Assembly (NCBI RefSeq): GCF_019422935.1
Contig: NZ_JAHZCJ010000001.1
Span: 62,001-126,000, forward strand
From: Desulfovibrio sp.
Lineage (GTDB): Bacteria > Desulfobacterota > Desulfovibrionia > Desulfovibrionales > Desulfovibrionaceae
Length of the DNA: 64,000 nucleotides
Direction: 5' to 3'
Positions 19,161 to 52,790 of this stretch are shown in pieces. Under the pieces are notes generated by a model, which saw only the letters and a program-made list of their open reading frames with translations, had not been told where the DNA came from and made no database searches. The position numbers were made by a program, and so were the translations under genes. Each line of letters begins with the position of its first letter. Within the stretch, counting starts at the first letter, position 1.

Positions 19161-20030
19161 GTGAAAGTTGTCGTTTGCGCCAAGAAGGATCTTGCAGGAT
19201 GTGTCGCCCTTAACAGACTGCTGGCAGCCATTGCCCCCAGGCACGATGTTTTTGTGGTTCTTTCAGATTACGTGCTGGACGCGGAGTGCAGCAATGCCTA
19301 TGCGGCAAGCCTTGTGGCCCATGAGCGGAATATGGTGCTTGAGCACATTCTGCCCTGGCTGGAGGCCCGCTTTCCTGAGGGTAATGCGGCGCAGTGTCAG
19401 ACCTATGCGGGCCTGAAAAAGCGTTATGGCATTGATATGGAGATGTGGGGCCCCATGCGGTCGCCCGCCTCCCGGCAAGCCATGCGCGACCTTGCGCCGG
19501 ACGTCGTCATCTCCTGCCGTTACGACTACGTTATTCCCACTGAAGTTATCGATATGCCCCGGCTTGGCACCTATGGCATGCATCCCGGCGCGCTGCCTGA
19601 CCTGCAAGGCCTGTGCAGCCCTTTTCGGGCCATGGAGCATGGCAATGAGCACTCTGGCTGTACGCTTTTCCACCTTGACGCAGGGCTGGATACCGGCCCC
19701 ATAGTGGAGATCGGCTGGTGGCCCATCAACTATGACCGCTCCCTGCTGTGGAACTTTGTGCATACCTATTTTGCGGGTATCGACGCCCTGTTGCGGCACC
19801 TGCCGGACCTGGAGGCGGGGCGCGAGCTGACAACCCATGTGCAGAGCAGCGAAGGGCGAAAATACTTCAGCTATCCTACCGAAGACGAATTCCGCAGCTT
19901 TATCCAGAAGGGCGGGCATATCGTCCTGCCCGAAGATTATCATGAAGTTCTGTCGTGGTTTCTGCCCGGTGGCCTGACAGATCCCGCCATGCCCGAGCTG
20001 TGGGCGCTGGTTAGTTCTTTGGAGTCCTGA
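19161..20030 (+). CDS. Formyltransferase-fold protein
   Basis: 289 aa, GTG start with AAAGGA upstream. The central part matches the formyl_trans_N fold: DVVISCRYDYVIP, then GMHPGALPDLQGLCSPFRAM (the SLLP-like loop with His) and TLFHLDAGLDTGPIV (catalytic Asp). In methionyl-tRNA and GAR formyltransferases an Asn two residues before the His belongs to the catalytic triad; here that position is Gly. It is too short and divergent to be Fmt. A sugar, amine or peptide formylation role is possible, and the nearby NRPS locus makes tailoring imaginable, but nothing proves it. The 3' end overlaps the convergent MFS gene by 20 bases. Confidence 0.6.
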   Translation: MKVVVCAKKDLAGCVALNRLLAAIAPRHDVFVVLSDYVLDAECSNAYAASLVAHERNMVLEHILPWLEARFPEGNAAQCQTYAGLKKRYGIDMEMWGPMRSPASRQAMRDLAPDVVISCRYDYVIPTEVIDMPRLGTYGMHPGALPDLQGLCSPFRAMEHGNEHSGCTLFHLDAGLDTGPIVEIGWWPINYDRSLLWNFVHTYFAGIDALLRHLPDLEAGRELTTHVQSSEGRKYFSYPTEDEFRSFIQKGGHIVLPEDYHEVLSWFLPGGLTDPAMPELWALVSSLES

Positions 20031-22413
20031 GCCGCCACATCAGGTGGAACAGCAAGGAAAGGGCGCAGACGATGCCGCCCATGAGCAGCAGCGCACTGGC
20101 TGGAGTCACGACGGTTACGGCAATGCCAAACACCACAGGCCCCGCCACCTGCCCCATGCGCTCCAGGCCCCGATAAATTGAGGCTGTCTTTTCGCGCCCC
20201 AGGGTTTGCGCCGAAGCAAGCGTGAGAACGCAGATCATGGACGCCGGGGCAGCCAGACACTGGGCCAGACCAAGGGAGATGACCGCAGCGGCGGCCCCGG
20301 CCATAGTTGTGGCCGTTGCCGCAATGAGCAGCGTAATGCCGGAGAGCAGGCCCGTGAGCGTCAGGAACAGGGATTTGTCTTTTCTGCGATCTATCCATTT
20401 GCCAAGCAATGGCCCCGCCGTGATAAAACACAGGCCGTAAAGCATGAATATACGGCCGATATCCGACTGATCCACATGAGCGTTTGCCAGCCTCAGGGGC
20501 AGCAGATAGTGCAAAAATCCGGTCAGACACATGGCGGCGGGTATGCCCACCAGCCAGAGTATCATGTGCATGCGCGGGTCTTGCAGCAATTGCATGCAAC
20601 CTGAAAACATGTGCCCCTGCACGGCGGTCTGCGCGCCAGCCCCCTGCCCGCTCACGTTGCCGGAACTGCTTGCTGCGGCCTCTGCGGGTTCCTTGCCAAG
20701 CATCACGGTGAACAGGGCCAGCAATATGGTGCAGGAGCCGGTCGCCAGCACCGCCTGAAACGAGACATGATCCGCCAGCATGGCTCCCGCTGCGGAGCCG
20801 CAGATGCTGCCGGAAAAAATGCCAGCGAACACGCTGGTGAGCCCCGCCCCGGCATTGGCCTTGCCCAGGGTGCCGATCTGTCCGGCCATGAGCACAAGGC
20901 CAAAGCCGAAGCCTGTGGCAACGCGCCCCAGAATAAGCAGGTGCAGGCTGTTGGCCATGCCGCCCATCATCAGTCCCACCGCCGCAGCCAGAGTGCCTGC
21001 GGCAAAGACCTTTCGCCAGCCGTAGCGCAATGAAAATCCGCCGGAAAACAGCAGGGCAAAGCCCGCGCTGACCATCTCTGCCGAAATGGGCAGGCCAATG
21101 GCCACATCGCGGCTCAGGCCCATGAACGGTTCGTACAACTGGCGGGCCAGCAGGGGAATGAACGATATACCCATGTCGTAGCCCAAAAAGAACACAAAGC
21201 CCGCTGCCCGCAAGGCCTGCACGGCTAGGGAGTGGTGGCTGCCTCCAAGGGCGTTCGCCGCAGCATCCGGCGGCAGGTTGCGTTGCGCAATAAGGCCCAG
21301 CAGTTTTGAGAGTTCCAGCAACAGCAAAAAGCTGATGAGCAGCGAGGCTCCTAGGTCAAGAGCCAGCGCCGATATACGGGCTGTGATGGCCTGAGGCTGC
21401 ACTGCCAGTTGCAGACGCAGCACCTCCTGCTTTTGGCGGAAGCGGCTGGGCCAGTAGGTGCTCAGTGATTTTTCAACCGTGAGCGCGGGGTCGGGCACGT
21501 GCCCGGCATAGGCTACCACCTTGCCTTCCGGGGTCAGCAGTTGTGCGCCCGCAAGCTCGCTGTTGGCTGCAAGCAACTGCTCAAGCGCCTGATCCTTGCC
21601 GCGCAGACTCGCGATATCTACGCCTTTGTGAATGAGGTATTCAAAATCGCGCCCGGTACCTTCGGCGAGGATGTCGGCCTTGGTGCGAACGGCCTGTTTG
21701 ACGAAGGTATCGAACAGCACCAGTGTGCCACAGGCGTAGAGCAACTGCGATGTGCCAATGATGATGAGCAGCATTCTGGTCATGCCTGAAAGGCTTGTGC
21801 CCACCGCGCGTTGCCCGGTCAGCAGACCAAGACGCCCGGCCAGAATCAGCCCCGCCACAAGGCAGGCCGCTGCCAGCAGCAGGGATGACAGACGCAGGAA
21901 ATCTTCTGTAGCCGCATTGATGGGCTTGCCGTCAATGTCCACCAGCAGGTGTCCTACAGGCGTTTTGTTGCTCAGGGGTATGCTCAGGCGGTAGCCATCG
22001 GCGGTTTTGATTGCGCCTTGCGGGCCGTCTTTGCCCTCGCTGGTCTGCGGGGCTGGACCGACAGGCAATGTACCTTCCGTTGCTGGGCCTTGGGCTGGCT
22101 GCACGTAGAGCGTGGAACCCCTGGCATCAATAATGGCCACACGTTTGATGCCCGCCGCGCTCTGTCCCAATTCCGCCAGCATTTCGTCCATCCCGGCGAA
22201 CGAAGCCAGCGGTTTGCCAAAGCGCATGCCGCGTTCAATATCGCGGGCCAGACGTTCAGCACCGCTGCGATAGCCGGAAAGCACCATGTCGGTTGCCAGC
22301 GTATTCAGCGTGGAAACAGAGAGCAGCACGTTGAAGCCCAGAGTAACCAGCAGAACTCCAAGCCCGAGCAGCAGGGCATTGATGCGCAGTTTGCGCGTGG
22401 CGCGGATAAGCAC
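20011..22413 (-). CDS. MFS transporter fused to N-terminal periplasmic sensor domains
   Basis: 800 aa, GTG start with AAGGA seven bases upstream. Layout from hydrophobicity: membrane helix (~11-32), periplasmic domain (~35-165), two membrane helices (~175-200 and ~217-240), a second periplasmic domain (~240-355), a helix (~360-380), then about 12 helices of a major facilitator (~395-795). The loop LRYGWRKVFA is the MFS cytoplasmic 'G-R-x-x-R'-like signature region, and a second copy is near GKWIDRRKD. The first part resembles chemoreceptor-type sensor input, so transport may be gated by a ligand. It lies nine bases after a PF04392-like binding protein gene. The substrate is unknown; peptide export or drug efflux is possible. 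Confidence 0.75.
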   Translation of the reverse strand: MLIRATRKLRINALLLGLGVLLVTLGFNVLLSVSTLNTLATDMVLSGYRSGAERLARDIERGMRFGKPLASFAGMDEMLAELGQSAAGIKRVAIIDARGSTLYVQPAQGPATEGTLPVGPAPQTSEGKDGPQGAIKTADGYRLSIPLSNKTPVGHLLVDIDGKPINAATEDFLRLSSLLLAAACLVAGLILAGRLGLLTGQRAVGTSLSGMTRMLLIIIGTSQLLYACGTLVLFDTFVKQAVRTKADILAEGTGRDFEYLIHKGVDIASLRGKDQALEQLLAANSELAGAQLLTPEGKVVAYAGHVPDPALTVEKSLSTYWPSRFRQKQEVLRLQLAVQPQAITARISALALDLGASLLISFLLLLELSKLLGLIAQRNLPPDAAANALGGSHHSLAVQALRAAGFVFFLGYDMGISFIPLLARQLYEPFMGLSRDVAIGLPISAEMVSAGFALLFSGGFSLRYGWRKVFAAGTLAAAVGLMMGGMANSLHLLILGRVATGFGFGLVLMAGQIGTLGKANAGAGLTSVFAGIFSGSICGSAAGAMLADHVSFQAVLATGSCTILLALFTVMLGKEPAEAAASSSGNVSGQGAGAQTAVQGHMFSGCMQLLQDPRMHMILWLVGIPAAMCLTGFLHYLLPLRLANAHVDQSDIGRIFMLYGLCFITAGPLLGKWIDRRKDKSLFLTLTGLLSGITLLIAATATTMAGAAAAVISLGLAQCLAAPASMICVLTLASAQTLGREKTASIYRGLERMGQVAGPVVFGIAVTVVTPASALLLMGGIVCALSLLFHLMWRLRTPKN

Positions 22414-22422: not shown

Positions 22423-23568
22423 TTAGGGGGTACCGGGGTGCGGCTGGCTGATGGTTTCGTGCAGTTCGTCCGCCGTTACCAGCACGTCAAAGGGAAAATC
22501 AAAGCCGATGGCCTTGGCGGTGGCAAGGTTCAGGGCAATGGAAGGCTCGGACTGGTCAAGCATGGGCAGGGTGCGCGGCTGCGTGCCGCTGAGTATGGCG
22601 TGAGCCTGCCCGGCAAGAGCTATGCCGCTGGGGCCGAAATTCCAGGTGGAAAAGCCCATGAGCGCTCCGGCTTTGACATATTCCGACCCGTCACGCGCAA
22701 AGGTGGGAATCTTCCACTGATTCAGCTTTTGCAGCAGCGGGGCCATGCCTTCGCCGCCGATATCAAAGCAGTTCAGCGGGCCGATAAAGAAGGCGTCCAT
22801 GCCCTGCTTGCGCAGGTCGTCCAGACCCTTGCGGCATTCTTCCGTACTTTCGGCGGAGGAGAGGCCATCGTAGAGCACAAGGGTAAATCCCAGCTCCGAG
22901 GCAATGGCCTGAGCATCGCCAAGTGCCGCGTAGACGCGGCCTTCCTGACTGTTCTGGAACATGATGCCCATTTTGTGAAAGCGCACCACATCGTAAAAAA
23001 CGCGGAACATGGAGGACCAGCGGTCAACTTCCACCCGGCAGGTAAAGTTGTCCACGCCTGAATCCTGCGCGCTTTTGACAACCCCGGCAGCCACAGGGTC
23101 AGCCATGCCCATGCCCAGGATGGGCAAACGGCCATCGTTGACAGCCAGCAAGGCCTTGACCGCCGCCGTGCCCATGCCCACCACAAGGTCAAGATCCTTG
23201 CGTTGCAAAAGCTGTTTTGCCATTTCAGGCAGGCGGCGCATCTGCGCTGGTTCCCAGCCGGGGCTGAAGCGTGCGTCAGCAGGGTATTCGCAACGGATGT
23301 CGTCATACTTGCCCATACCGTCGCGAAAGGCGCTCCATGTATTGTCAAACAGCCAGAACGGCCCGGCCTCAAGATAGCCGATGCGTTTTACAGGCGGATT
23401 GGCCCAGGCGGGAGGGCAGGAGGCTAGAATCAGCCCGCCCAGAAAGAGTATGGCAAGAATCAGCGAGGTCAGGCGCTGCAAAAATGCGGCTGCATGGGGG
23501 CGGTGCCCCTGATTTTGCTGCGGGCGCAGCAAAAGGCATGGGCCGTTGGCTGTAATTGGAAAAAGCAT
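22423..23568 (-). CDS. PF04392-type ABC substrate-binding-like protein (copy 1)
   Basis: 381 aa with a hydrophobic signal region (~residues 31-55, ending CPPAWA) that predicts export. The mature part has the two-lobed periplasmic-binding fold of the ABC_sub_bind family (TrpX-like): KRIGYLEAGPFW at the start, DLDLVVGMGTAAVKALL, PILGMGMADPVAAGVV, then a second lobe with ALMGFSTWNFGPSGIALAGQAHAIL. No ABC permease or ATPase of that type is nearby. A paralogue lies at 28225-29358. It sits in a tight operon with the sensor-MFS gene downstream. The ligand is unknown. The start is uncertain because no strong ribosome site is seen. Confidence 0.75.
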   Translation of the reverse strand: MLFPITANGPCLLLRPQQNQGHRPHAAAFLQRLTSLILAILFLGGLILASCPPAWANPPVKRIGYLEAGPFWLFDNTWSAFRDGMGKYDDIRCEYPADARFSPGWEPAQMRRLPEMAKQLLQRKDLDLVVGMGTAAVKALLAVNDGRLPILGMGMADPVAAGVVKSAQDSGVDNFTCRVEVDRWSSMFRVFYDVVRFHKMGIMFQNSQEGRVYAALGDAQAIASELGFTLVLYDGLSSAESTEECRKGLDDLRKQGMDAFFIGPLNCFDIGGEGMAPLLQKLNQWKIPTFARDGSEYVKAGALMGFSTWNFGPSGIALAGQAHAILSGTQPRTLPMLDQSEPSIALNLATAKAIGFDFPFDVLVTADELHETISQPHPGTP

Positions 23569-23802: not shown

Positions 23803-25113
23803 TTATTGCCTTACAGCGCCGCCACGGTGCGGTTGCAGCAGTGTTTTATTCAACCTCTGGATGTAATCCGATACATTTTCTCCGGGGGCGATCCAGCCAG
23901 CCCCGGCGGGCGCTTGGGCTTCGGCAGCCGCGGCAGAATCCTGCCTTGCGGCGTCGTTACGTGCCCCGTACTTCGGCGCATACTGCGCCCCGGATTGGGA
24001 TTCGTGCTGGATTTGAGGGCGCAGGCCGGAATGTGAATTGGGGCGGAACGGGGGCGTTTTGCCGGGTTCGGGCCGCATCTGCCCTGGCTGAACTTGGCCA
24101 GGCCGTACGCCATCGGGCCGCTTCTGGTCCGGGCTTTCCGCATCTGTTCCCGACATATCCGGTTTGGCAGGCGTCTGCTGGCTTCCCTGAGCGGGAGCCT
24201 TGGGGGCCGCCCCCTGATTGGCTGTTTTGCCGGAGTTTGCCGCATCGGGCGCGGCAGCGCCAGTGGGTGAATCTGCATTGAGAATAACAGGCAGACCATC
24301 CTTGCCGCCGATCACAACCACCTTGGCGTTGGACGAACCCGCAAGCTCCTTGGTGGCCTGAATGCCTTCGTAGCGCAGGAAGTTCTGCGTCATGTTCTCG
24401 TTGACAAGCGTCTGGTAGGCCTTGATGCCTTCGCCTTCAATGGTCTTGCGGCGGGCTTCCTGCTGGGCTTCAAGCAGAATGTACTTGTAGCGCAGGTAGT
24501 CCTGCTCCGCTATGAGCTTGCGTTCAATGGCCTCGCGCAGCACTTCGGGCAGGGTGATGCTTTTGACCACAAAACCCTGAATAAGTACGGGGATGCGCCC
24601 CATTTCTTCCACCGCGTCCACCAGCATCTGGTCTTGCAGTTCCTGCCGCGCTGTGGAGTAAAGGTCGTCTGGCCGGTAGCTGCCGATGGTTTGCCGCACG
24701 GCGGAATTCATGATGGGAATGACGACCTTGTCGCGGTAGTTAGGCCCGATTTCCTGATGCAGGTTGGGCAGGCGGTCGCGGATGATCTGAAAGCGCAGTG
24801 AAATCTGCACGTTGATGGTCAGGCCGTCCACGGTCAGCACATCAATGTTCTGGGTTTCTTCCTGCACGCGCACATCATAGATGTACATGATGTTCCACGG
24901 CTGGATGAAATGTATGCCTTCCTCGTAGGTGTGCTGCAACTGTGTGCCGCCGCGAAAACGCGCATACAGAACGCCGAGCTCACCGGGCTTGATGGAAATG
25001 ACGATGCTCGGCCAGAGAAAGATGAGCAGCAGTGTTGCGACAGCACCCGTGATTATCAACCGCAGGCGATTGCGGCGCAACATTTCCCGTATATTTGCAC
25101 AGACGCTTTTCAT
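23803..25113 (-). CDS. SPFH/band-7 (prohibitin-like) membrane protein
   Basis: 436 aa. One N-terminal membrane helix (~18-38), then a clear SPFH domain (~40-235): KPGELGVLYARFRGGTQL, GIHFIQPWNIMYIYDVRVQE, LTVDGLTINVQISLRFQI, SAVRQTIGSYRPDDLY. A helical region (RKTIEGEGIKAYQTLVNEN) follows. The last ~150 residues are a low-complexity Pro/Gln/Ala tail, unusual for the family. SPFH proteins form large rings that organise membrane domains or protect membrane proteins. Its start overlaps the preceding stop (ATGA), so translation is coupled to the Cys-rich protein and, through it, to the exporter. Confidence 0.85.
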   Translation of the reverse strand: MKSVCANIREMLRRNRLRLIITGAVATLLLIFLWPSIVISIKPGELGVLYARFRGGTQLQHTYEEGIHFIQPWNIMYIYDVRVQEETQNIDVLTVDGLTINVQISLRFQIIRDRLPNLHQEIGPNYRDKVVIPIMNSAVRQTIGSYRPDDLYSTARQELQDQMLVDAVEEMGRIPVLIQGFVVKSITLPEVLREAIERKLIAEQDYLRYKYILLEAQQEARRKTIEGEGIKAYQTLVNENMTQNFLRYEGIQATKELAGSSNAKVVVIGGKDGLPVILNADSPTGAAAPDAANSGKTANQGAAPKAPAQGSQQTPAKPDMSGTDAESPDQKRPDGVRPGQVQPGQMRPEPGKTPPFRPNSHSGLRPQIQHESQSGAQYAPKYGARNDAARQDSAAAAEAQAPAGAGWIAPGENVSDYIQRLNKTLLQPHRGGAVRQ

Positions 25114-28184: not shown

Positions 28185-28224
28185 GTGCAACCTCGTTGTG
28201 ACCGGTTTCAGGGTTACGGGAAAT

Positions 28225-44400: not shown

Positions 44401-47400
44401 CGGCCCTGGCGCTGCGGTGTCAGTTCTTTTGGCCTCAGCGGTGTAAATACCCATGTGATTGTGGCGGAGCATCAGGCGGAGCCTTTGCCGCAGGACGACG
44501 GACACTGGCAGTGCGTGGTATTTTCCGCCCCGGACGAGGCCTCGTTGCAGGACTACGCCAGGGCGGTCGCGGCGGCTGTGGCGCGCAACGAGGGCTGGCC
44601 CCTGCATGCCGTTGCCGCCACCCTCATGACAGGGCGGGATGCTCTGCCTGTGCGTGCGGCTCTTGTGGCGCGTTTCCGGCAGGGACTGCTTGAACAGCTG
44701 GAGGCTGGCCTCACGGGCGTTGCCGTGGCCAGCGCGGGTCGTCATGACAGCCGGGACAGCATGGAAAATCCCCTTCCCGGCGCATTCTTTGCCTCGCAGG
44801 AAGCGGCGCAGGCAGCCGCCAGCGCCTATCTTGCCGGGGCAAGCCTTGCATGGCCCGCAGAAAGGCCCGTCTACAGGGTGCATCTGCCCGCAGCTCCTCT
44901 CGCCGCCGCTACATTGTGGCCGCGTTTTGCAGCGCATTTTCTTTCCGACCCAGTCATGACACCTGCCGGAAAGGCTTTTGCCCTTGCCGTGGACAGGCCG
45001 GATTTCTGGCCTGCTGGGGAGCACAGGCTTGAAGGCACCCCCTTGCTGGTGGGCATGGGCCTGCTGGATTGTCTGGGATGGATTGGCGGAGCCGCCCCCC
45101 TGAGTCTGCACGATCTGCGCTGGCGCAAGCCCGTAGCCTGCGGCCCCGGATGCCGCGCAGTGCTGCTGGCGCGGGAGCAGGGCGATGCCCTTGCCGTGGA
45201 GCTGCACCACTTTGAGCCTGCCGACCATAAAGCTGGCGAGACGTTTACCAAAGGGCAGGCCACAGGCACATGGAGCGTGGCCGCCAGCGGTTTATTGCGC
45301 GGCGGGATTGCCCGCCCTGCGGCGTTGAATCTGGCTACAGTGCGCGAAGGTCTGCGCGAAATTGCGCAGCAAGATACGCCGGAAGATTCGCCGCTCATGG
45401 TCAGCGGGCGTTGGCAGTGCCGCAAGGCGCTCTGGGTGGCGGAGGACGGCAATACCCTGCTGGCAGAGCTGTGCCTGCCCGAGGCCTATCGGGCGGATTT
45501 CAATACCTTCCGCTGGCATCCGGCCATGATGGACATTGCCGCAAGCCTTGCCCTGCGCGGGGCTTACGGTTTTGTGCCCGCTGGTTGCCGCATGGCGCGG
45601 CTCTACAACCCTCTGACCGCGCAGGCCTTTGCGCTGGTGCGTATTACCGACCGTCAGCAGGGTATGATCGTGGCCGACTGCACGGTGACGGACGCCTCGG
45701 GCCAGATTGTTGCGGAGCTTGAAGGAATGACCTTTATGGCCCTGCGCAAGGGGCAAACCGCTGGCAAATCCGGCCCGGATATTTTGCAGCCGCAGCCGGA
45801 ACTGTACGCCATCGGGTGGAAGCAGGCCGATCTGAAAGGCTCTATTGCCGGGCCGCAAAACATCATCTTGCTTGGCGGGCAGGGTGGCCTTTTGGGTGAG
45901 GCTCTTAAGCCGCTTGCCCACGCGCGCCGTCCCTTGCCCGCGCATGCGGATGAAGCCCGCGCGCTGGCGCATGAAATTCTGGCTGGCCCCACAGATCATC
46001 TGCTCTGGCTGCCCAGCTTGCAGTCGGGCGGGCAAAACGACACATGGCCGCTTTGCGCCCTGCTGCAAGAGGTTTGCAGCGGCGGGCTGCGCCGCCCCCT
46101 GCGCGTCACAGTTGTGGGCAGCGGGGCCTTTGTGCCGGATACCTCCGCCCATGAACCGCATCAGGCATGTTTGCCGCAGGGCGCGTTGTACATGGGGCCG
46201 CTGCTCTGCCTGCCATGGGAAGAACCCAGGATTTCCTGCGCCTATGTGGAGCTTGAGGAGCAGAATGCAGCTTCCGTAGCGGCCTTTGTGGCCAGCCTCG
46301 GGCTGGTTGACGGGCCGTATGTGGCGGCACACGATGGCACGGTGCGTGTGCGCGAGCTGGTCAAACTGCCGTCTGCGCCTGCCTCGACCGCCATACCTGT
46401 TATAACAAGGAACGGCTGCGTGGTGATCACCGGCGGCCTTGGCGGCATGGGCCAGACGCTGGCGCGCCAGATTCATGAGCGCCACGGGGCGCGGGTGGTT
46501 TTGCTGCACAGAAGCAGCCAGTTGCCGCCCCATGCGCTGGAGGGCGTGCCCTTTGCCGCCTTCCGTTGCGACGTTACGGATGCCGCGCAGGTTGAAGAGG
46601 TTTTTGCAAAAATCCGGCGCGAGGTCGGCCCTGTGCAAGGCGTCATTCATACGGCTGGCGTGGCTGGCAGGGGTTACCTGCTGACCAGCGACAGGCAGGG
46701 ATACGAATCCGTGCTGGCCCCCAAGGTGACTGGCGCCTGGAACCTGCACAAGGCAACCCTTGGTGATGATCTGGCCTTTTTTGTGCTGGCTTCATCGCGC
46801 ACGGCCCTTGTGGGCGCGCCGGGGCAGAGTGATTACACCGCCGCCAATGCCTATTTGAACGCGTTTGCCCGGTATCGGCGCAGCCTTGGGCTGCCCGGGC
46901 TTTCCATCAACTGGAACACATGGTCGGGCGTGGGCATGGCCGTTCGCGAGGGGCTTGGCAACGGGCCGGAAGCCGCAACCATGCTTGCGCCGCAGCAGGC
47001 CCTTGCCGTGCTTGAGGCCGCGCTTGCCAGCGGCGAGGATCTTGTGGCTGTGGGCATGACGGGCGAAAGCGCAGCGAATTTTGCCCTTAACGGCCTGCCC
47101 GGGAGCGAGTTGCCCGGCAGCATGTTGGGCAGCGCGTCAATCAGCAGCAGTGCGGCGAAGGGCAATGCCACGCAGGCGCAACCCGGCGTTAATGCCGACA
47201 GTCTTGATGGGGCGGCCCTGCTTGAGATTATCCGCGATTGCCTTGGATATGACAGACCGCTGACCAGAGAGGACGACTTTTTTGATCTGGGTGGCGATTC
47301 CATTGCCGCAACGCGTATTGTGAATCGGCTGGACAAGGAGGCGGGGCTTGCCCTCGCTGTGGCGGATCTGCTGGAAAGCGACACCCTCGGCGATATTGTC

Positions 47401-49275
47401 GACTGCGCCCTTGCCTCGCGCAAGCCAGCGCAGCCGCTGCAAAAGAACGAGGAAACAACGCCAGTTCTGGATAAGTACCCCGTGGGCAACGAGCAGCTTG
47501 CCATCCTGTATGCCGACATGGTCAGCGAGGGCGATCTAGGTTTCAACCTGCCAGCATTCCTTGTGATGCCGCCAGATGCAGATGCGGCGCGGCTTGAAAA
47601 GGCCCTTGCCCAGATTGTGGAGCGGCATGAGGCGCTGCGCACCAGCTTCTGCGACTTTGAGGCCGAGCGTCCGGCCATGATTATTCATCCGTTTACGGGA
47701 TTTACCCTTGAAGAAAGGCGCATCCCCGATCTTGCGCACAAGGATGCTGTTATCCGACCCTTTAACCTGCGCAACGAAACGGGCTTTCGCGCCTGCCTGC
47801 TTGTGACCGATGCGGGTGAAAAGATCTTGTTCATTGACCTGCACCACGCCCTTGGGGACGGCAGAACCATGTCGCTGCTCAATGTGGAGTTGTACCGTCT
47901 GTATCACGGGCTGGAGCTTGCGCCTGTGACCGCGCAGATGAAGGATATCGCCTGGCGGCAGGTCATGCATCCCGATCCCGAAGCGGCAGCCTACTGGCAG
48001 AATATTTACAAGGGCGAATTGCCCCGGTTGGATCTGCCCGCATCGCATCCTCGGCCCCGGGTGCACACGGGCAGGGGCGGCACGTATGAATTTGACCTCG
48101 CGCCGGAGCTTGTGCAGGCCATCAAGGGTTTGGCCCGCAGGGAAGGGCTGACCAACTATCAGGTTTCGCTCTGCGCCTGGAGCCTGCTGGCGCAAGCCTA
48201 CACCGGCTCGCAGGATATTGTGGTCGCTGTTTCAATGGACGCGCGGGGCGAACATCTCAACACCGCAGGCATGCTGGCCTCCGTGCTGCCGCTGCGTTTC
48301 AGCGTAGACCCCGACCAGCCGCTTTCCGCCCTGCTGCGCGCCACGCGGCAGGTAAGCAACGAAGGCATGCGGCACCGCTCTTACATCCTTAACAGCCTGC
48401 TGGCCGACCTCAGGCAGACCGCATGGCCGGACAGATCGCCCCTGTCGGAGATCATCCTCTCGTACATGAACTTTGAATTTGCCGCCGAAGGGCAGGGCCT
48501 GTTTGAATCCCTGCGGTTCAGCAAATTCTCCAGCAAGACGGATCTTTCCATCTTTGTGAGCGATATTGGTGAGAGCATAAGCATTGCCCTTGAATACTAC
48601 GCAGACCTGTTCAGCGAGGCCGATGTGCTGCGCATGGCCCGCGATTATGTGCGCATGCTTGAACTCATGACCTCCGCGCCTGCGGATGCGCCGCTGCGCT
48701 TTACGCCCACTGATTTGCCGTGCGCCGCTGGCGGTGCGGTCATCCTTGAAACGTGCGAGGCCCTGGCCCCGGCAGCCTTGCAGCAAGGTGTTGAGGCAGT
48801 GGCTGCGGGCAAGGGAGCATCTGCCGAGGCTGTGTTGCTGGCGGTGTTTGCCGTGCTGATGGGCAAGGTGACCCAGCAGGAGCAATTTGTGGTGGCGGTG
48901 CCGCCAGAGCGCGCCATCAGGTTCAGTATTGACGACAATATGGAGTTTGAAGAACTGCTGGCCTTCACGCAAAAGGGGCTGACGGATAAGGCTGGTACGG
49001 GCGATGCTGACCACGGGGTCTCTGCCCTTGCTGATGATAACATGCCCCTCATGCAAAGTGCCCTGCGTTTGGGTTTTGCATTTGCGCGGGGGGGCGTCTC
49101 TATCCCTGATGCGCAAGGGAGGGGGTATGGTCTTTTCTGCTCGGTCCAAGAACAGAAGGAAGGTCTGGCCCTGCATTTTGCGTATGATCCGCAACAGCTT
49201 GGCGCGGAAACCGCTCAGGACTGGCTGACTTATTACGGGAATTTTCTTGAAGGCATAATTGAAGGGGCGGCATGA
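32500..49275 (+). CDS. Hybrid NRPS/trans-AT PKS megasynthase, 5591 aa
   Basis: Start ATG at 32500 (GGGGGA upstream; a GTG at 32488 is possible). Domains by motif, residues from this ATG: C1 (SHVVLDG, 133-139); A1 (YTSGSTG at 584; Lys911); PCP1 Ser963; C2 (HHVAGDG, 1137); PCP2 Ser1438; E (HH-x3-D at 1621; FNYLG at 1823); C3 (HHLLMDG, 2064); PCP3 Ser2430; C4 (HHIIFDG, 2604); A4 (3086; Lys3433); PCP4 Ser3512; KS (Cys3738, His3871, His3912); linker without AT; DH (His4175, Asp4345); KR (TGGLGG at ~4644, Tyr4779); ACP Ser4934; C5 (HHALGDG, 5115); partial C (~5410-5585). C2 and C3 modules have no A domain. The pocket of A1 reads DASTIAAVC and of A4 DVWHFSLVD, suggesting aromatic residue and Ser. 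Catalytic residues are intact throughout. Overlaps the next gene by ATGA. Confidence 0.93.
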   Translation: MAKIVPLTGCQKELWLSAKAALSDYAETSIRGCYHIDALLDPDLLRQAIKRTLHFTPLPAASLCQDEAEPYFLVGEEQEPDFRVLDAAAQPNPSAAADRMIDEFFEEPVENPLMRYALVITGEASCIVAMKCSHVVLDGLAFFFHIAVIADVYTALACGETPDLGEPCSCEEAYLEDQAHCASPRFQKDMAFWHEHLSRLPEKRLLRALPGRPDVLGESRHQKFVLSEKTSSETSALIAAHKVSPAVFFTGIYTLIVSFMSGEKDIVALAPVAYGERKVLYRRQGAMMSLPPLLVNVAAHDTFAGLLEAVSAQNGSFYRHVRTPYQLAARQLEGKNFAFLADTFVNFLPNTPPGTPKFPIVEAEQRHSAKEPILFGTLVMQELRSGCFSLTVRNSRNHLSDRDVERFVARVESVVAQLAAGIEPPQLDYLLDEEKLELAQWRSGPARTYDIRSLPELFDAVADAFAGRVAVKDEWGNALSYAQVRENSLRCASWLAGQGVVRGGIVAVAAQRTANLPEVVLGIQRLGAIYLPIDPKAAPDRMAYIVEDAGADITLDLADLTYRQSPITPLPHAPRAEDGAYLIYTSGSTGKPKGVLAPHGGFANMIQGQIELFGVQADDHVLQFAPPIFDASLSEMFMALLAGAALYPVSDQCRNAPWTLRQYMIDNDITVVTLPPSYLNLFEGEPFPGLRVLITAGEPPVAGDALHYAKGLRYFNAYGPTETCVCAAMKEVSPFEPQPIGVGSPIPNVTLSIRNAEGRELPAGMAGELWIGGASLAIGYHNKPEMTEQRFIHVPQEGNARFYASGDMALWSDKGEILLLGRADDQVKIRGNRVELAEVACLLESCESVSQAAVLAVKDAGGQASLAAFFVLRPGASIETVVSWSRTSLPPYMVPSAWHVLEAMPLAPTGKIDRKALQNLARRGEAHGGSGRKAHAGLLEIFERVLGRAYDPEKSFFAQGGNSLNAMSLLHAIRKTFNVDISFRSFVSCETLFDVEAQLGGVRAESALAGIESAPLSTGQFRIWAYQQVNEGSIDYNMPLLLELRGDRTADFLEGLRRAANAQELFHCTVAGDIDNPHFAQGKGEVYLCSVTIADAREAAVFFDQQIHTPFDLRVEPPVRLVAAVLPQCVQVLVLVHHVAGDGETLEILLQNALRYLRGEPPVRGLLAVQEAFCRRQAAYAASPACADDAAYWQEVLTPPVPTVNQAAGAASRKGAMIGVNLDTETALGFEILAKNSGASVLACFVALAGRALCRRFDRKELLLGVPMGLRETQEEFCAAGFYVNTVPLRVSLDVLEDSAAVVDAARQMRQAIEHSRYCAADIVPEFLATHAYFEPVGVPGLELNRLELELRASKLTASFTLVTGTASRIVLEYDAGCIADAPALLNDLARSMRRACEGLVRRDPRQVLGNAWREILHPGSSSAVQEESDFFRDGGDSIKAIQITGILRRSGITALSAPDFLRMPRFGDLCTLLESAESDSSATQTMDYSPVAPGEQVPLLLFARYFLGAHPSHWRQFFMLLPLEIRADVPTASIEAWLQTLPENHESLRMAFAPDHAVLLAEPQKIGLHCRDFADTVEQTSLLREAVGEITAGLDATCGKTLGAMLARQGEKRFLLLVGHHLALDALSLETLRQGLLHYCRTGKAQCEAHGLALRAREVERLRAAGVFPSEEQRALWRAACAVPCEPLRALLSQSRDRAASRARLSAQLDGFRQEYSTDAKADLLAALACALHAQGQKSAVRVTLESHGRDELLPGFDASRSLGWFTAVCPMPLEPALNYAQAREVLGPWLAQHFSPENCNAYGYLRQENPAEFGYAAQIAFNYLGRVTGQPDEEASLMLSALAPGLIPELVHADMEADAPLELSVFFDQQGILHLGAWFSPHCLAHDWVSGLLQSWLAALKTLPAYLPQQTLDAIFAACGCRAEDVERIAQPDAGHAPLLYQSLLAESGVYTQQVEFHFRGPVDIFALMRAWEALTARHESLRSLFPMPVEGEFYRVVLLKGRTSLEFHDFSHLPEAEAEAEAQALLRAERQRGFDVQRGPLLRARFFRRGADRVVMSWCFHHLLMDGWCMGVLLRELFALAGAKGGPENSRLPEPFPLETYSRWRAQFDERAARAYWAGLLQDFNGPTGVELAQPAPRAATPGEFDEPQTVELELDAALSASLQELAKTEAVTLSALVQTLWAIVLSNANNGCRDVVFGVVTSGRPAELAGIESAVGLFIQTSPLRARWTASESLGALLAQVKEQNLQQMRYGYVPLATLGRNLLDHLMVFENYPVDTCFDHNRVELRDMRGFEKLPYALGISVIPGVNLRFRFLYDPERLPEERALALRNGLHAVLVAAASEGGRTCLALEEAANTALADAEKSGAEQGEAENASDNAAVIAGQAQAPQRLDVANLAETVRAAYVAVLGCPVDSVDADFFQLGGHSLIAMSLLSQLSKSLSVTVGIEDVMGYPSPRALAVHIGSLAKADVIIPRVEGLAVYPLSPAQQRIWFLQKLHEGGQVYVIPFAARLRGPVDPVALQEALTLLEERHDALRLRVALDAPEQRLAPAGGLRLECYDAPLTDAAYLGMSLPLGPERPLVRVALFRQEDGSHALLFCFHHIIFDGWSAEVITRELNEAYGAALQDSLPQWPPLELDFASYALWESQREAEGLEQICSDLAPLPERLRLPLDYPRPAVQRFEGAVQSFDLGLERSHGLKDWALRAGVTVFPVLLALVDAFLLRHTGQDDIIVGCPAANREHEQVQGVVGLFVNTLAVRARMNAQGGFAELAGTVDAAFRKSLSAQNCPFEKVIEAVGVERNAARNPVFDVFAALEDASWNNFGRPPLCMEPLPLPHLCSKFDLSFYFKERSDGGYTVDVEYCTELFSPQTVRRMTERLLTLADAVLADDAKPLAELDILPARERAELASFNDTAEPLDVAADMDSRFRAQAARTPHAMAVMDAAGTAVSYRQFNVQVDAVCAWLQGQGVARGQYVCVCFERSPAMLACIFAVLRLGAVYVPLAATLPDERMRSVFEDLGQCVVLCEARFAEAFRKNLQDGQNGQCGQRVLSPDFEALVAGAQVPGAVPHYEAEPLPPDSPAYVIFTSGSTGRPKGVPIEHASVANRLLWMQSRFPIGQGDEVLQKTTITFDVSVWELFWWSWQGAGIALLEPNAEKNPALIVQAIEARRVTVLHFVPSMLRAFLDHLEGHPGDVRRLRSLRYVFTSGEALPRELVARWSALTHADQLQVELHNLYGPTEATVDVSWQPCLNTPPHAVPIGRPVSNTRLYVLDACKNPVPLGVTGEIYISGIQVARGYLNRPELTAQRFMDDPFAPGSRMYRTGDLGRWLADGSIEYLGRNDDQVKIRGYRIELGEVEAALGRCRGVSQAVVRMGRIGEYAALEAFLLPQGGARLDLAGIRAELAALLPNYMCPSRFFVVQDIPLSPSGKADRKRLQGYPLLAGGEKDAASAALGPDAFQPTSQTGGQTGSDSGLSPALIEAVREVWRQVMPEVEAGSDLGFFDAGGNSLLLVRLHTLLDKQWSGVFTLAGLFSESTIRAQAAFIARTQQVGSTVAVCRATTAPIAIIGMAVRLGDYADVQSFWRDLARGADKNIPMSEKRRGETRQIFDAVGLAFDDARLREAAYLSDISSFDYRRFGLSPNDASLLDPAQRVFLETALRALDDAGYGGSALENADVGVFVGASPVRLFQTAVTRAFPDLAEQTYLLNVPSNVLARLSYMKNWHGPAASVDTACSSVLAALHQACRSLHEGECAVALVGGAHVIDLPVKADAAFAIESVSGRTRTFDAEAKGVGAGEGAAVFLLKPLDAALRDHDAIHAVIPGSAVNQDGKSSSMAAPNPEAQAEVIDRAARNAGVSLADIQFFEAHGTATVLGDPVEIEGLRRAFARQGAQREQKALIGSVKGNLGHLDAAAGAAGLAKAVLCLENGLVPPQPHFERPNPHIDFEAAPVRVAQKLEPLPPQERPWRCGVSSFGLSGVNTHVIVAEHQAEPLPQDDGHWQCVVFSAPDEASLQDYARAVAAAVARNEGWPLHAVAATLMTGRDALPVRAALVARFRQGLLEQLEAGLTGVAVASAGRHDSRDSMENPLPGAFFASQEAAQAAASAYLAGASLAWPAERPVYRVHLPAAPLAAATLWPRFAAHFLSDPVMTPAGKAFALAVDRPDFWPAGEHRLEGTPLLVGMGLLDCLGWIGGAAPLSLHDLRWRKPVACGPGCRAVLLAREQGDALAVELHHFEPADHKAGETFTKGQATGTWSVAASGLLRGGIARPAALNLATVREGLREIAQQDTPEDSPLMVSGRWQCRKALWVAEDGNTLLAELCLPEAYRADFNTFRWHPAMMDIAASLALRGAYGFVPAGCRMARLYNPLTAQAFALVRITDRQQGMIVADCTVTDASGQIVAELEGMTFMALRKGQTAGKSGPDILQPQPELYAIGWKQADLKGSIAGPQNIILLGGQGGLLGEALKPLAHARRPLPAHADEARALAHEILAGPTDHLLWLPSLQSGGQNDTWPLCALLQEVCSGGLRRPLRVTVVGSGAFVPDTSAHEPHQACLPQGALYMGPLLCLPWEEPRISCAYVELEEQNAASVAAFVASLGLVDGPYVAAHDGTVRVRELVKLPSAPASTAIPVITRNGCVVITGGLGGMGQTLARQIHERHGARVVLLHRSSQLPPHALEGVPFAAFRCDVTDAAQVEEVFAKIRREVGPVQGVIHTAGVAGRGYLLTSDRQGYESVLAPKVTGAWNLHKATLGDDLAFFVLASSRTALVGAPGQSDYTAANAYLNAFARYRRSLGLPGLSINWNTWSGVGMAVREGLGNGPEAATMLAPQQALAVLEAALASGEDLVAVGMTGESAANFALNGLPGSELPGSMLGSASISSSAAKGNATQAQPGVNADSLDGAALLEIIRDCLGYDRPLTREDDFFDLGGDSIAATRIVNRLDKEAGLALAVADLLESDTLGDIVDCALASRKPAQPLQKNEETTPVLDKYPVGNEQLAILYADMVSEGDLGFNLPAFLVMPPDADAARLEKALAQIVERHEALRTSFCDFEAERPAMIIHPFTGFTLEERRIPDLAHKDAVIRPFNLRNETGFRACLLVTDAGEKILFIDLHHALGDGRTMSLLNVELYRLYHGLELAPVTAQMKDIAWRQVMHPDPEAAAYWQNIYKGELPRLDLPASHPRPRVHTGRGGTYEFDLAPELVQAIKGLARREGLTNYQVSLCAWSLLAQAYTGSQDIVVAVSMDARGEHLNTAGMLASVLPLRFSVDPDQPLSALLRATRQVSNEGMRHRSYILNSLLADLRQTAWPDRSPLSEIILSYMNFEFAAEGQGLFESLRFSKFSSKTDLSIFVSDIGESISIALEYYADLFSEADVLRMARDYVRMLELMTSAPADAPLRFTPTDLPCAAGGAVILETCEALAPAALQQGVEAVAAGKGASAEAVLLAVFAVLMGKVTQQEQFVVAVPPERAIRFSIDDNMEFEELLAFTQKGLTDKAGTGDADHGVSALADDNMPLMQSALRLGFAFARGGVSIPDAQGRGYGLFCSVQEQKEGLALHFAYDPQQLGAETAQDWLTYYGNFLEGIIEGAA

Positions 49276-52200
49276 TGAAGTTATCGGATTTTTCCTTTGC
49301 CACTCCAGAAAAAAAATCTGCAAGGCCAGAGTCTGCCAGTATTTCCTGCTCTGGCCCGCATACTGCGAGCGCCACGCAGGCAGGGGGGGAGTTTGCCAGC
49401 CTTGAGCATCTGTTCCGCAGCATTGCTGACGCAAGGCCAGAAGCCGAAGCTCTGACCGGGGGCGGCCATGGGCTGACCTTCAGTGAGCTGGACGTTCTCT
49501 CGGAACGCATTGCCCGTTTCATTCTTGCGCAGGGGTATGGGCACGAGGCCGTGGTGGGCGTGCTGTGCGCGCGCGGCGCGGTGTATCTGGCTGCGGGACT
49601 TGGCATTATGCGGGCCGGGGCAGTGTATCTGCCCGTGGAGCGCGAGCAGCCGCAAAGCCGCAAAGAGGCCATGCTGCGGCCCGCAAGCCTGATTATTGCC
49701 GACAGCGCCTGCCTGCGCGAAGCCGAGTATTTTCACTACAGGAATCCCGGCATTCGGCATGTGCTCTGCCTTGATGCGCAGGACTATGACGATGCCCTTG
49801 AAAAAGGCACAGGCCTTGTCAGCACCGAATACTGGGAGCAGGTGGCGCAGGGGGGCAGCGACATGGGCTGGAAGAGCGATTTTGACGCCGCCCCCTGCCC
49901 GCGAAGCGATCTCGCGGCCATGGCCGCTGCCGTGCTTGAGAAATGCGGGCTGGCTCACAAGGCGGATTATCTCCGCGCAGGCCGCAAAGTGCTGGATGTG
50001 GGCAGCGGGTCTGGTTGCGTGGCGCAAGCGCTTGCCAAGGCCGTGCAGGAATATGCGGCTGTGGATCTGGCCCGCAATGAACTCAGCCGCCTTGCCAGTT
50101 TTGACGCTGCCGCCAGGGTGACGCCGTATCGTATGGAAGCGGCGGACATTCATTTTCTTGAAGGTCAGGCCTTTGACGTGGTGGTCATAAACGGCGTGGT
50201 GGAAAATTTCCCCGGCTACAACTATCTGCGCAGGGTGCTGCATCACGCCGTGGAGATGCTCACGCCTGACGGCCTCGTTTTTGTGGGGGCGGTGCGCGAT
50301 CTGGATTGCCGGGACGACCTGCGGGCTGCCTTGCAGACACATGCCCTTGCCACCGGCGATCAAACCGGCCTGCTGCGGCTTGATGCCTCTGAGGAATTGT
50401 TTGTTCCCCGCCAGTTTTTTACGGAGTGGGCGGCGCGCTGCCCTGTGTCGGTGGAAGTGACATTCTCCCCTTGCATTTTTGGGCAGAACCATGAGCAGAA
50501 CCGTGTGGATGGCGGCAAGCAGCAAGGGGAGCAACCTTACCGTTATGATGTGGTCATCCGCCCCGGCGGCAGTCGCTCTCTGGTTCCGATTTCGCGGTTT
50601 GGGGCCCAGCATTTGCCGCCTGCGGGCGGGCAAGCCCTGCCCCCATGCGATCCCGCCCAGGCTGCCTATATCGTCTATACCAGCGGTTCAACGGGCACTC
50701 CCAAGGGGGTGGTGGTTGAGCACTGCAACCTCATGCACATTTTGCGCGCCCTGCGGCCCTATGCGGCGGGCTGCGAGAGGGTGGGGCTGGTTGCGCCCCT
50801 GTCGTTTGACGCTTCTGTGCAGCAGTTGGCCGTGTCTGTCTTCAGCGGCAAGAGCCTGCACGTGCTGTCGGACGAAGAACGCAAGAATCCCTCGCTTTTT
50901 TGCGCCTGCGCGCGTGAGCGCGGGCTTGACCTGTGCGACATGACGCCCGCGTTTTTCAACGTGCTCACAGACTGGCTTGCCGAGCAGCGTCAGCCTTTGC
51001 CGCTCAAGGCTCTGCTGCTGGCGGGCGAAGTGCTGCGGCCCGATGTGATCCGCAAATTTTACGCCATCCCCGGCAACGAGGATGTGGTGCTGTTCAATGT
51101 GTACGGCCCCACGGAATGCACGGTGGACAGCAGCGCCTTTCGCATAGATGTGGGCAACCATCAGGATTTTACCGCCTACCCCATTGGCAGTCCTCTTGAA
51201 GGCGTGCGCATCTGCGCCATGGATAAAAATTGTCAGGAGCTGCCCGATTCAGTCACTGGCGAACTGTGGATTTTGGGCAATGGTGTGTCGCGCGGCTACC
51301 TGAATAACGCCAGCCCCGGTGCGTTTGTGGAAAAAGACGGCCAGCCCTGCTATCGCACGGGTGACAACGGTTATGTGCAGAACGGCCTTGTTTTTTTCCG
51401 TGGACGCGAAGACCAGCAGGTGAAGATACGCGGCAACCGGGTGGAACCTGGCGAGGTGGAAAAGGCCGTTGCGGGCTTTCCCGGCGTGCGTCAGGTGGCG
51501 GTGGTGGCGGATACCTTTCGCGCCGGGGAGGAAAAGACCCTCGCCGCCTATGTGGTGGGCGATGTGGATATGGCCCTGCTGCGCGGATACCTAGAGCAAC
51601 ACCTGCCGCCGTACTGCGTGCCCGCCTATTTTGTCCCCATGATGGAATTGCCGCTTTCGCTCAACCGCAAGATAGACAAAAAGGCTCTGCCGTCACCCCT
51701 GGGCGGGGTGGAAATTCAGCGCGGGCGCATGCCTGTCGGGCCTGTGGAAGAAAAACTGGCCGAAATATGGAAGCGACTGTTGGGCTTTGAAATCACCGAT
51801 GCCAATGCTGGCTTTTTCAGTCTGGGCGGTCACAGCATTCTTTCCATCAGGCTTATTGCCATGATCGAAAAGGAAATGGGCGTGCATGTGGCTGTGAACG
51901 AGCTGGTCTCGCATTCAAGCATCGCGCAGCTTGCGTCCCTGCTGGCCGGAAAGACCGAAAAGCGTGAAAGCCCCGTTATCCAGCTGCAACACTGCGAAGG
52001 CGGCAAGAACCTTGTGCTGTTTCACCCTGTTGGCGGCAGCGTGTTCTGCTACAGCGACCTTGCGCGCCTGCTTGGCGGCAAATATTCGGTCTATGCCGTC
52101 GAGGCGGCGGGCTTCAGCCAGCGCCGCACGTCGCTTACAACAGAGCTGCATACGGTTGAGAGCCTGGCGGAGTATTATCTGGACGAAGTACTCAAGGTCG

Positions 52201-52790
52201 AGAGCCGCGATATCATCTGGGGCGGCTGGAGTTTCGGCGGTCTGCTGGCCTATGAATGTTCCCGGCGGTATGCGACACTGGGCAACCGCAGCGAGCCTGT
52301 CATCATTCTTGATACCGTGGCCGACAATACCCGCGCAAAACAGATGGCGGCCAAGGATGACATCGAACTGTTGCAGCTCATTTTGCAGCAAGGTATGGCC
52401 TTTGACCCCGTAAAGCTCCGCGCCATGCCGCGTGAACAGCAACTGGGCTACCTTGTGGAATGCGGTGAGAAAAGCGGATTGCTGCCTGCCGGGTTCAGCG
52501 CCGTGCAGATGGACAATCTGTTGCTGACCTATCGCGGCAACACCCTGGCGGCTGCGCGTTACGAGCGGCCAGGCCCTTCAGACTGCAAACTGTTGCTGGT
52601 GCGCGCGCTGGATTTTGCAACTAACCCGCAGATAATAATGAATGACGACTATCAGGGTTGGGCCCGTTTTTTGAAGAAGGAAAATATCTCGCTGCGCTGG
52701 GCGCAGGGCACCCACGAAACCATGCTTTCTGCCGGCCTTGCCGCAAATGTGGCCCAGCTTATACTGGAATATCTTGAAGCTGAAAAATAG
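49272..52790 (+). CDS. NRPS with methyltransferase-interrupted A domain, PCP and TE
   Basis: 1172 aa, ATGA overlap with the upstream synthase. The A domain is split: its first part (motifs A1-A2, LTFSELDVL and MRAGAVYLPVE, to ~residue 150) is followed by an inserted methyltransferase (~165-435; SAM loop VLDVGSGSG with Asp242, and VVVINGVVENFPGYNYLRR, as in NRPS N-methyltransferases). The rest of the A domain then resumes at YTSGSTG (469). The pocket reads DAQDLAVVD, close to the textbook Gln code DAQDLGVVD. PCP Ser855 (GGHS). The C-terminal type I thioesterase has Ser987 in GGWSFGG and His1148 in GTHETM. No C domain is present; it must use the C domain at the end of the first protein. It should add an N-methylated Gln-like residue and release or cyclise the product. 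Confidence 0.92.
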   Translation: MMKLSDFSFATPEKKSARPESASISCSGPHTASATQAGGEFASLEHLFRSIADARPEAEALTGGGHGLTFSELDVLSERIARFILAQGYGHEAVVGVLCARGAVYLAAGLGIMRAGAVYLPVEREQPQSRKEAMLRPASLIIADSACLREAEYFHYRNPGIRHVLCLDAQDYDDALEKGTGLVSTEYWEQVAQGGSDMGWKSDFDAAPCPRSDLAAMAAAVLEKCGLAHKADYLRAGRKVLDVGSGSGCVAQALAKAVQEYAAVDLARNELSRLASFDAAARVTPYRMEAADIHFLEGQAFDVVVINGVVENFPGYNYLRRVLHHAVEMLTPDGLVFVGAVRDLDCRDDLRAALQTHALATGDQTGLLRLDASEELFVPRQFFTEWAARCPVSVEVTFSPCIFGQNHEQNRVDGGKQQGEQPYRYDVVIRPGGSRSLVPISRFGAQHLPPAGGQALPPCDPAQAAYIVYTSGSTGTPKGVVVEHCNLMHILRALRPYAAGCERVGLVAPLSFDASVQQLAVSVFSGKSLHVLSDEERKNPSLFCACARERGLDLCDMTPAFFNVLTDWLAEQRQPLPLKALLLAGEVLRPDVIRKFYAIPGNEDVVLFNVYGPTECTVDSSAFRIDVGNHQDFTAYPIGSPLEGVRICAMDKNCQELPDSVTGELWILGNGVSRGYLNNASPGAFVEKDGQPCYRTGDNGYVQNGLVFFRGREDQQVKIRGNRVEPGEVEKAVAGFPGVRQVAVVADTFRAGEEKTLAAYVVGDVDMALLRGYLEQHLPPYCVPAYFVPMMELPLSLNRKIDKKALPSPLGGVEIQRGRMPVGPVEEKLAEIWKRLLGFEITDANAGFFSLGGHSILSIRLIAMIEKEMGVHVAVNELVSHSSIAQLASLLAGKTEKRESPVIQLQHCEGGKNLVLFHPVGGSVFCYSDLARLLGGKYSVYAVEAAGFSQRRTSLTTELHTVESLAEYYLDEVLKVESRDIIWGGWSFGGLLAYECSRRYATLGNRSEPVIILDTVADNTRAKQMAAKDDIELLQLILQQGMAFDPVKLRAMPREQQLGYLVECGEKSGLLPAGFSAVQMDNLLLTYRGNTLAAARYERPGPSDCKLLLVRALDFATNPQIIMNDDYQGWARFLKKENISLRWAQGTHETMLSAGLAANVAQLILEYLEAEK

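Follow-up and report, generated by a model that had tools for sequence, protein, structure and literature searches.

Introduction

In the passages of the barnesin A report used here, the brn assembly line of Sulfurospirillum barnesii has a starter condensation (C) domain, a first adenylation (A) domain for Tyr and a ketosynthase-dehydratase-ketoreductase (KS-DH-KR) module that lacks an acyltransferase (AT), with FabD as the trans-AT (PMC13096860). According to the same passages barnesin A inhibits proteases by Michael addition, and by BLAST its authors found a homologous cluster in Geovibrio only (PMC13096860). Thalassospiramides are also protease inhibitors in the excerpted accounts (PMC5577590, PMC13096860). 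Knowledge of the natural products of Desulfovibrionia is scant according to an excerpt of PMC11934131, and the passages of PMC4306944 report no nonribosomal peptide synthetase (NRPS) or polyketide synthase (PKS) open reading frames (ORFs) in D. magneticus. Here we describe an NRPS-PKS locus in a 64,000-nucleotide stretch of Desulfovibrio sp., hereafter the window (assembly GCF_019422935.1, contig NZ_JAHZCJ010000001.1, positions 62,001 to 126,000 of the forward strand). The passages of PMC7738495 make no mention of such a cluster, and no title or abstract naming it was found among the matches listed from the open-licence PMC literature.

We propose, with a probability of about 0.58, that the locus encodes a conserved AT-less assembly line. 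Its predicted product, acyl-Tyr/Phe - D-residue - residue - vinylogous serine - Gln-like residue, would be exported, likely finished in the periplasm and probably act as an electrophilic protease inhibitor.

Results

Architecture of the synthases

The reading frames of the two synthases, NRPS1 and NRPS2, are open and overlap by 4 bases. NRPS1 starts with GTG; counted from an ATG at residue 5 it has 5591 aa, which with the 1172 aa of NRPS2 matches the 6763 aa given to two collinear megasynthases in a preliminary description of this DNA. Pfam and motif scans reproduced the domain order claimed there, C-A-PCP / C-PCP-E / C-PCP / C-A-PCP / KS-DH-KR-ACP / C-half C // A(MT)-PCP-TE (PCP, peptidyl carrier protein; E, epimerization; ACP, acyl carrier protein; MT, methyltransferase; TE, thioesterase). 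The catalytic residues, described as intact, were confirmed, and neither synthase carries an inactivating frameshift. The synthases and their modules are as follows.

32488..49275, + strand: NRPS1, 5595 aa, C1-A1-PCP1-C2-PCP2-E-C3-PCP3-C4-A2-PCP4-KS-DH-KR-ACP5-C5-halfC
49272..52790, + strand: NRPS2, 1172 aa, A3 interrupted by a methyltransferase, then PCP and TE
32488..33807, + strand: C1, starter-type condensation domain with SHVVLDG (Protein Data Bank (PDB) matches and motif)
33850..35262, + strand: A1, code DASTIAAVC(K), Tyr/Phe-like (aligned code positions)
35530..38247, + strand: module 2, C2-PCP2-E without an A domain (domain and motif scans)
38290..39912, + strand: module 3, C3-PCP3 without an A domain (A domain here in 3/46 relatives)
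39925..43167, + strand: module 4, C4-A2-PCP4, A2 code DVWHFSLVD(K), predicted Ser (code; PMC3795760)
43180..47412, + strand: PKS module KS-DH-KR-ACP without AT (Pfam and motif scans)
47455..48747, + strand: C5 condensation domain (motif scans)
48748..49272, + strand: half C domain, probably left over from a module since lost (comparison with relatives)

No AT family was matched in NRPS1 or NRPS2 by the Pfam scan, and the KS module, in which KS, DH, KR and ACP were found, has the AT-less form of a trans-AT PKS. The best PDB matches of C1 are 7c1k and CDA synthetase I 4jn3, which we take to be starter C domains; C1 is of the starter type by similarity to these two only. The KS-DH-KR unit stands behind an amino acid module and carries its active residues, as expected for a vinylogous lipopeptide line, DH activity being predicted. 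A starter-type C domain combined with an AT-less KS-DH-KR unit behind Ser suggests that the product is a lipopeptide containing a vinylogous serine. E and C domains are not distinguished by Pfam, and the E assignment follows the motifs HHxxxD and FNYLGR, taken as those of E domains.

Motif variants occur at three sites and recur across the family: HHxxxDG is without its first His in C1, and the motifs of E and DH are HHxxxDA and HxxxGxxxxV. Residues were surveyed in the 46 proteins with both KS and DH matches out of 121 (the window and 120 listed relatives), with 44-46 sequences per motif as some proteins are cut. The KS Cys and both His are kept in 46/46, and the KR residues in all or nearly all of these NRPS1-type proteins. 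For NRPS2 the survey covered 96 of 102 proteins (P0002, P0004-P0104), those of 1050-1300 aa, with the 19 remaining matches left out; here the TE Ser and Asp are kept in 96/96 and the His in 95/96. The A domain of NRPS2 has its first part at residues ~45-149, the methyltransferase at ~190-420 and the A3 core motif at ~469, so that the insertion, preceding the latter, sits between the a2 and a3 motifs. Methyltransferases in this position tend to methylate side chains.

Adenylation specificity

From the aligned positions, the codes are DASTIAAVC for A1, DVWHFSLVD for A2 and DAQDLAVVD for A3. The positions follow what we take to be the GrsA numbering, with Lys assumed at position 10. A1 is one letter from Tyr and Phe codes. 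The A3 code is DAQDLAVVD in 75/96 relatives and DAQDLAIVD in 6/96. In the cited passages, DVWHFSLVDK, which equals A2, is the Ser code of enterobactin synthetase (PMC3795760), and DAQDLGVVDK, one letter different from A3, takes Glu and Gln (PMC12283262). We infer that A2 loads Ser and A3 a Gln/Glu-like residue.

Modules without an A domain

Among the NRPS1-type proteins, window included, module 2 lacks an A domain in 45/45 and module 3 in 43/46. Such modules could be dead stations that the growing chain skips, as a module 3 A domain does exist in three relatives and the module after C5 looks eroded. The catalytic motifs kept in these modules make skipping doubtful: the carrier Ser of PCP2 (45/45) and PCP3 (46/46), HHxxxD in C2 (45/45), HHxxMDG in C3 (46/46) and HHxxxD in E (45/45). 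Most likely, PCP2 and PCP3 receive their residues from A domains of the line itself, because the carrier Ser residues are retained and, in 7/11 cluster genomes, the TIGR01733 matches above 200 bits are A1, A2 and A3 only. Service by an outside A domain is unlikely in these seven genomes and conceivable in G078, G038, G145 and G247. Other NRPS A domains were seen at G078:C13, G038:C2, and G247:C22 and C41.

The module 3 A domains of P0293, P0350 and P0363 have intact TSGS(S/T)G motifs and the codes DGLWYGGTF or DALWLGGTF, which read as Val-type. That of P0293 is 45-46% identical to those of P0350 and P0363 and 29-30% to A2 and A1 of the window. The region after C5 comprises a degenerate A domain, a PCP and a full C domain in P0350, a PCP and a full C domain in P0363, and the half C only in the Desulfovibrio type, while P0301 (G247) passes straight to A(MT)-PCP-TE. 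The half C is likely a vestige, since it aligns one-to-one to the C-terminal part of the full C domains of P0350 and P0363 (25-26% identity, E 9e-6 and 8e-13). In a tree made by a quick method, P0350 and P0363 stand apart from all others, and P0293 falls inside the clade without a module 3 A domain. The position of P0293 suggests that the history of module 3 was not one simple loss, as several losses or a regain would be needed. In G154 two ORFs make up NRPS1, and in G160 NRPS1 is shortened.

Conservation and distribution

Among 288 genomes from this family, NRPS2 is encoded in 17 (E <= 1e-150) and the aminomutase together with NRPS2 in 14. The line is thus rare in the family, in keeping with the earlier remark on sulfate reducers. 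Comparison with other Desulfovibrionaceae genomes, which had been suggested as a check, mapped 15 other loci: 11 have the full module order, three are solo NRPS2 paralogues and one (L001) is cut by a contig end. Given the 11 complete orthologous loci, an artefact or a decaying locus was rejected. At one of these loci (G247) the two synthases form a single protein that lacks the half C. The aminomutase and type II thioesterase genes flank 11/11 complete loci and the phosphopantetheinyl transferase (PPTase) gene 10/11, being absent at G145. The solo A(MT)-PCP-TE genes (G078:C3, G038:C20 and G041) are ~62% identical and have no NRPS1 alongside. The closest named relative is D. desulfuricans (97% for NRPS2), in agreement with the Desulfovibrio-type genome first proposed; D. 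legallii, Nitratidesulfovibrio, Humidesulfovibrio and Desulfomicrobium are other named relatives, and more distant forms occur in Magnetospirillum fulvum, Imhoffiella purpurea and Rhodocyclaceae.

Co-occurrence was counted between the 17 NRPS2 genomes and the 271 others. The ATP-binding cassette (ABC) exporter (E <= 1e-80) is found in 16/17 and 1/271, the outsider (G006) being 32% identical; the aminomutase (E <= 1e-100) in 14/17 and 0/271; an S12 peptidase (E <= 1e-30) in 15/17 and 1/271, the outsider (G175) being 29% identical; a formyltransferase-fold gene (E <= 1e-60) in 11/17 and 0/271; and a major facilitator superfamily (MFS) transporter (E <= 1e-80) in 11/17 and 5/271. The exporter is missing from G041, the aminomutase from G002, G041 and G146, and the S12 peptidase from G041 and G078; G041 carries a solo NRPS2 only. 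In G145 the exporter, MFS and formyltransferase-fold genes lie together on a contig other than that of NRPS1.

It is conceivable that the aminomutase and S12 peptidase belong to other pathways and have only ancestry in common with the cluster. Aminomutase relatives at 61-65% occur outside the family, for example in Desulfobacula and Syntrophobacteria, so that the subfamily is wider than the cluster, and the S12 gene is not next to NRPS2 in 6/15 NRPS2 genomes that have it. However, the aminomutase gene is divergent from NRPS1 in 11/11 complete loci and absent from NRPS2-free genomes at the threshold above, and the S12 peptidase occurs in 15 NRPS2 genomes against one other, which makes service elsewhere quite unlikely.

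Aminomutase

The preliminary description had placed an aminomutase-thioesterase-PPTase operon opposite the synthases, and all three genes are indeed on the - strand. The aminomutase label stands at the level of the KamA family: TIGR00238 scores 257.4 bits against a cut-off of 199.2, and no specific equivalog passes its own. Lysine 2,3-aminomutase reaches 259.8 of the 525.4 bits of its cut-off, and the identities of lysine, glutamate and arginine 2,3-aminomutase were rejected, all being far below their equivalog cut-offs. A search with the glutamate 2,3-aminomutase model gave no reference sequence above the cut-off. Like lysine 2,3-aminomutase (2a5h), the protein belongs to the KamA family and has the CxxxCxxC cluster motif; unlike it, the protein scores far below the AblA cut-off and reads YQCM in place of YQCD, with Met in 120/120 relatives among the matches listed. 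The Asp of YQCD is presumably a lysine contact; D293 and D330 have this role in lysine 2,3-aminomutase, and of these the alignment covers the D293 position only. Beta-lysine is an unlikely product.

Export and the S12 peptidase

The cyclic-peptide-type exporter noted earlier is present at 25598-27280, and its family assignment falls just short, with 274.5 bits for TIGR01194 against a cut-off of 286.2. This resemblance would also suit a metal-chelator (siderophore) system with a metal complex as the cargo of the exporter and the binding proteins, as TIGR01194 presumably includes the pyoverdine exporter PvdE and the cluster has two periplasmic binding proteins and an MFS transporter. Among the genes scanned, however, there is no catechol, hydroxamate or thiazoline domain, and, antisense frames aside, the window has no unassigned ORF of the size of an outer-membrane receptor, although one may exist elsewhere in the genome. 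We consider a siderophore very unlikely.

The S12 orthologue P0245 (G154) has 383 aa, S91VSK and Y182SN motifs and an N-terminal hydrophobic stretch that by eye is of the export type. Its three best PDB matches are a PBP-related beta-lactamase, a D-amino acid amidase and an alkaline D-peptidase, with ClbP (3o3v) lower among the matches; no C-terminal three-helix membrane domain was found in P0245, in which no hydrophobic segment is above threshold. The gene adjoins NRPS2 or lies within ~2 kb of it in 9/15 genomes, is at least tens of kb away in G039, G059 and G038, and occupies a different contig in G001, G002 and G145, whose assemblies are broken. As the gene lies at a distance in some NRPS2 genomes, its co-inheritance is not mere neighbourhood. 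Co-occurrence with NRPS2 suggests a periplasmic maturation step. The PDB matches of the D-peptidase kind and an E domain in every line suggest that the enzyme may cleave beside the D-residue, as in prodrug systems.

Remaining genes of the cluster

The cluster extends beyond the span first given, 20011..52790, as far as the formyltransferase-fold gene (19161-20030) or further; the DUF697 gene also belongs to it. On the - strand, the PPTase gene is followed by those for SBP2, DUF697, the ABC exporter, the Cys-rich protein, Band 7, SBP1 and MFS (SBP, substrate-binding protein).

31126..32358, - strand: KamA-family radical S-adenosylmethionine (SAM) aminomutase (profile and alignment)
30401..31117, - strand: type II thioesterase (family match)
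29639..30397, - strand: PPTase (family match)
28225..29469, - strand: SBP2, periplasmic substrate-binding protein PF04392 (family match, mapped loci)
27561..28271, - strand: DUF697 protein, kept in the cluster (family match, relatives)
25598..27280, - strand: ABC exporter resembling cyclic-peptide exporters (TIGR01194; just below family cut-off)
25110..25601, - strand: secreted-type Cys-rich protein without known family or fold (six Cys invariant in 6 sequences)
23803..25113, - strand: Band 7/SPFH membrane protein (family match, mapped loci)
22423..23568, - strand: SBP1, periplasmic substrate-binding protein PF04392 (family match, mapped loci)
20011..22413, - strand: MFS transporter whose N-terminal extension (~400 aa) is membrane-anchored (extension without Pfam match)
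19161..20030, + strand: formyltransferase-fold protein without the usual catalytic Asn (among 288 genomes, only with NRPS2)

A fold search with the Cys-rich protein gave no match (best E 1.4). The ~400-aa N-terminal part of the MFS protein has four hydrophobic segments, looks sensor-like and has no Pfam match. N-x-H is the formyltransferase motif, and its Asn is Gly in 5/5 sequences of the formyltransferase-fold protein compared. Trigger factor, ClpX and Lon genes lie upstream of the cluster, so the site looks chromosomal. A VanX-like M15 D-Ala-D-Ala dipeptidase gene (18262-19065, +) adjoins the cluster in the close relatives G078, G038, G039 and G059 and was not seen at the mapped loci of G024 or G151. 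In the intergenic region 32359-32499 and its homologues, inspected by eye, AGTACAG...CCTTGCCAA stands ahead of NRPS1 in G024, G154, G145 and G160, and the window reads AGTATATG...ACTTGCTAA. An AGTACAG-type motif here is possibly a shared promoter or operator.

Discussion

In the proposed route, C1 would attach a fatty acid to the Tyr or Phe charged by A1. Modules 2 and 3 would each add a residue, with A domains of the line itself charging their carriers, and E would give residue 2 the D-configuration. A2 would load Ser, malonate would be supplied in trans (by FabD, by analogy with barnesin), and KS-DH-KR would convert the Ser to 4-amino-5-hydroxypent-2-enoate, a vinylogous serine. A3 would then load a Gln-like residue to be methylated by the embedded methyltransferase, and TE would release the finished chain. 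Transfer of the product to the periplasm may be the task of the ABC exporter together with the Band 7 and Cys-rich proteins, and there a secreted S12 D-peptidase may trim it beside the D-residue. A beta-amino acid other than beta-lysine may come from the aminomutase.

Several points weigh against this proposal. The product, the substrates of the A-less modules and protease inhibition are predictions, and the Tyr/Phe-like specificity assigned to A1 is tentative. Further NRPS-type A domains are encoded in four of the 11 cluster genomes (G078, G038, G145, G247). The S12 peptidase gene is absent from the 64-kb window, and G078, whose NRPS2 matches the window's at 94% and which has the full cluster, has no S12 orthologue (best E 2e-15); the S12 step is thus not universal. 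Six of the 17 NRPS2 genomes lack the formyltransferase-fold gene (G041, G052, G154, G160, G243, G247) and six the MFS gene (G002, G041, G154, G160, G243, G247). The Fisher p values for co-occurrence (2e-12 to 4e-24) ignore shared ancestry, and kinship with the barnesin and thalassospiramide lines would be one of logic, drawn only from published descriptions.

Dehydration is not certain either, because the DH motif has V in place of the usual P in 46/46 proteins. If the DH were inactive, the PKS module would give a statine-like beta-hydroxy gamma-amino acid and the product would be no Michael acceptor; the Pfam PS-DH match in NRPS1, limited to profile positions 36-163 of 166, would fit that outcome. 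However, both catalytic residues, His and the HPxxxD Asp, are present in 46/46 although the motif is otherwise variable, and an inactive DH appears unlikely.

A bolder form of the proposal, speculative and rather unlikely as a whole, is that the line makes an acyl-peptide prodrug with a vinylogous-serine warhead. In that case, its aminomutase would be the first among radical SAM 2,3-aminomutases to act on a hydrophobic or aromatic residue (beta-Tyr or beta-Phe for A1), its A-less modules would be active and self-charged, and a co-inherited but not always neighbouring periplasmic D-peptidase would unmask the inhibitor.

If the AT-less vinylogous lipopeptide line is as proposed, it offers a candidate electrophilic protease inhibitor from sulfate reducers (among proteases, calpain is a cysteine protease). 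Its relatives form a natural erosion series, in which the module 3 A domain is absent and the downstream module is reduced to a half C and then lost by fusion, with carriers intact throughout. As these intact carriers have no A domain, whether an assembly line can charge them with its own A domains is open to direct testing.

The locus may also be set beside other described systems. ClbP-type lines, as in colibactin, make acyl-D-Asn with a module 1 that bears an E domain; here A1 is Tyr/Phe-like and E is in module 2. Like ClbP in the passages of PMC9889268, the S12 enzyme is a serine peptidase of the S12/beta-lactamase fold with SxxK and YxN, and the features predicted here include an acyl cap at the N-terminus and a D-residue. 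It differs in having no C-terminal membrane helices, in the place of E in module 2 rather than 1, and in a gene that is not next to NRPS2 in 6/15 genomes. The bilothiazole line of Bilophila is likewise an NRPS-PKS from the same bacterial class, but its excerpted description has heterocyclization domains, predicted Cys and a different logic (PMC11934131).

The thalassospiramide lines (ttc), as excerpted, come closer: they share a Phe/Tyr module 1, proposed charging by the line's other A domains, an AT from primary metabolism, a homologated serine and a lipopeptide product (PMC5577590, PMC13096860). They have seven modules with iteration, whereas the present line has A-less C-PCP-E and C-PCP modules and an aminomutase. 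The barnesin line, in the passages describing it, is alike in its starter C, aromatic first A, KS-DH-KR vinylogous unit, cyclic-peptide transporter genes, own PPTase and anaerobic host (PMC13096860). Unlike the present line, brn has two A-bearing NRPS modules, places Arg before the PKS and ends in PKS-TE (PMC13096860). The line in the window has two A-less modules, an E domain, Ser before the PKS, a Gln-like A(MT)-PCP-TE and an aminomutase, with an S12 peptidase in most relatives. The early statement that the domain order matches no nameable pathway therefore holds for the order and number of modules and for the two A-less modules, unlike brn and ttc, but not for the logic, which has been published for barnesin A and in large part for the thalassospiramides. 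By this comparison the module order appears to be new, and the chemical logic that it would follow is that known from barnesin A and the thalassospiramides.

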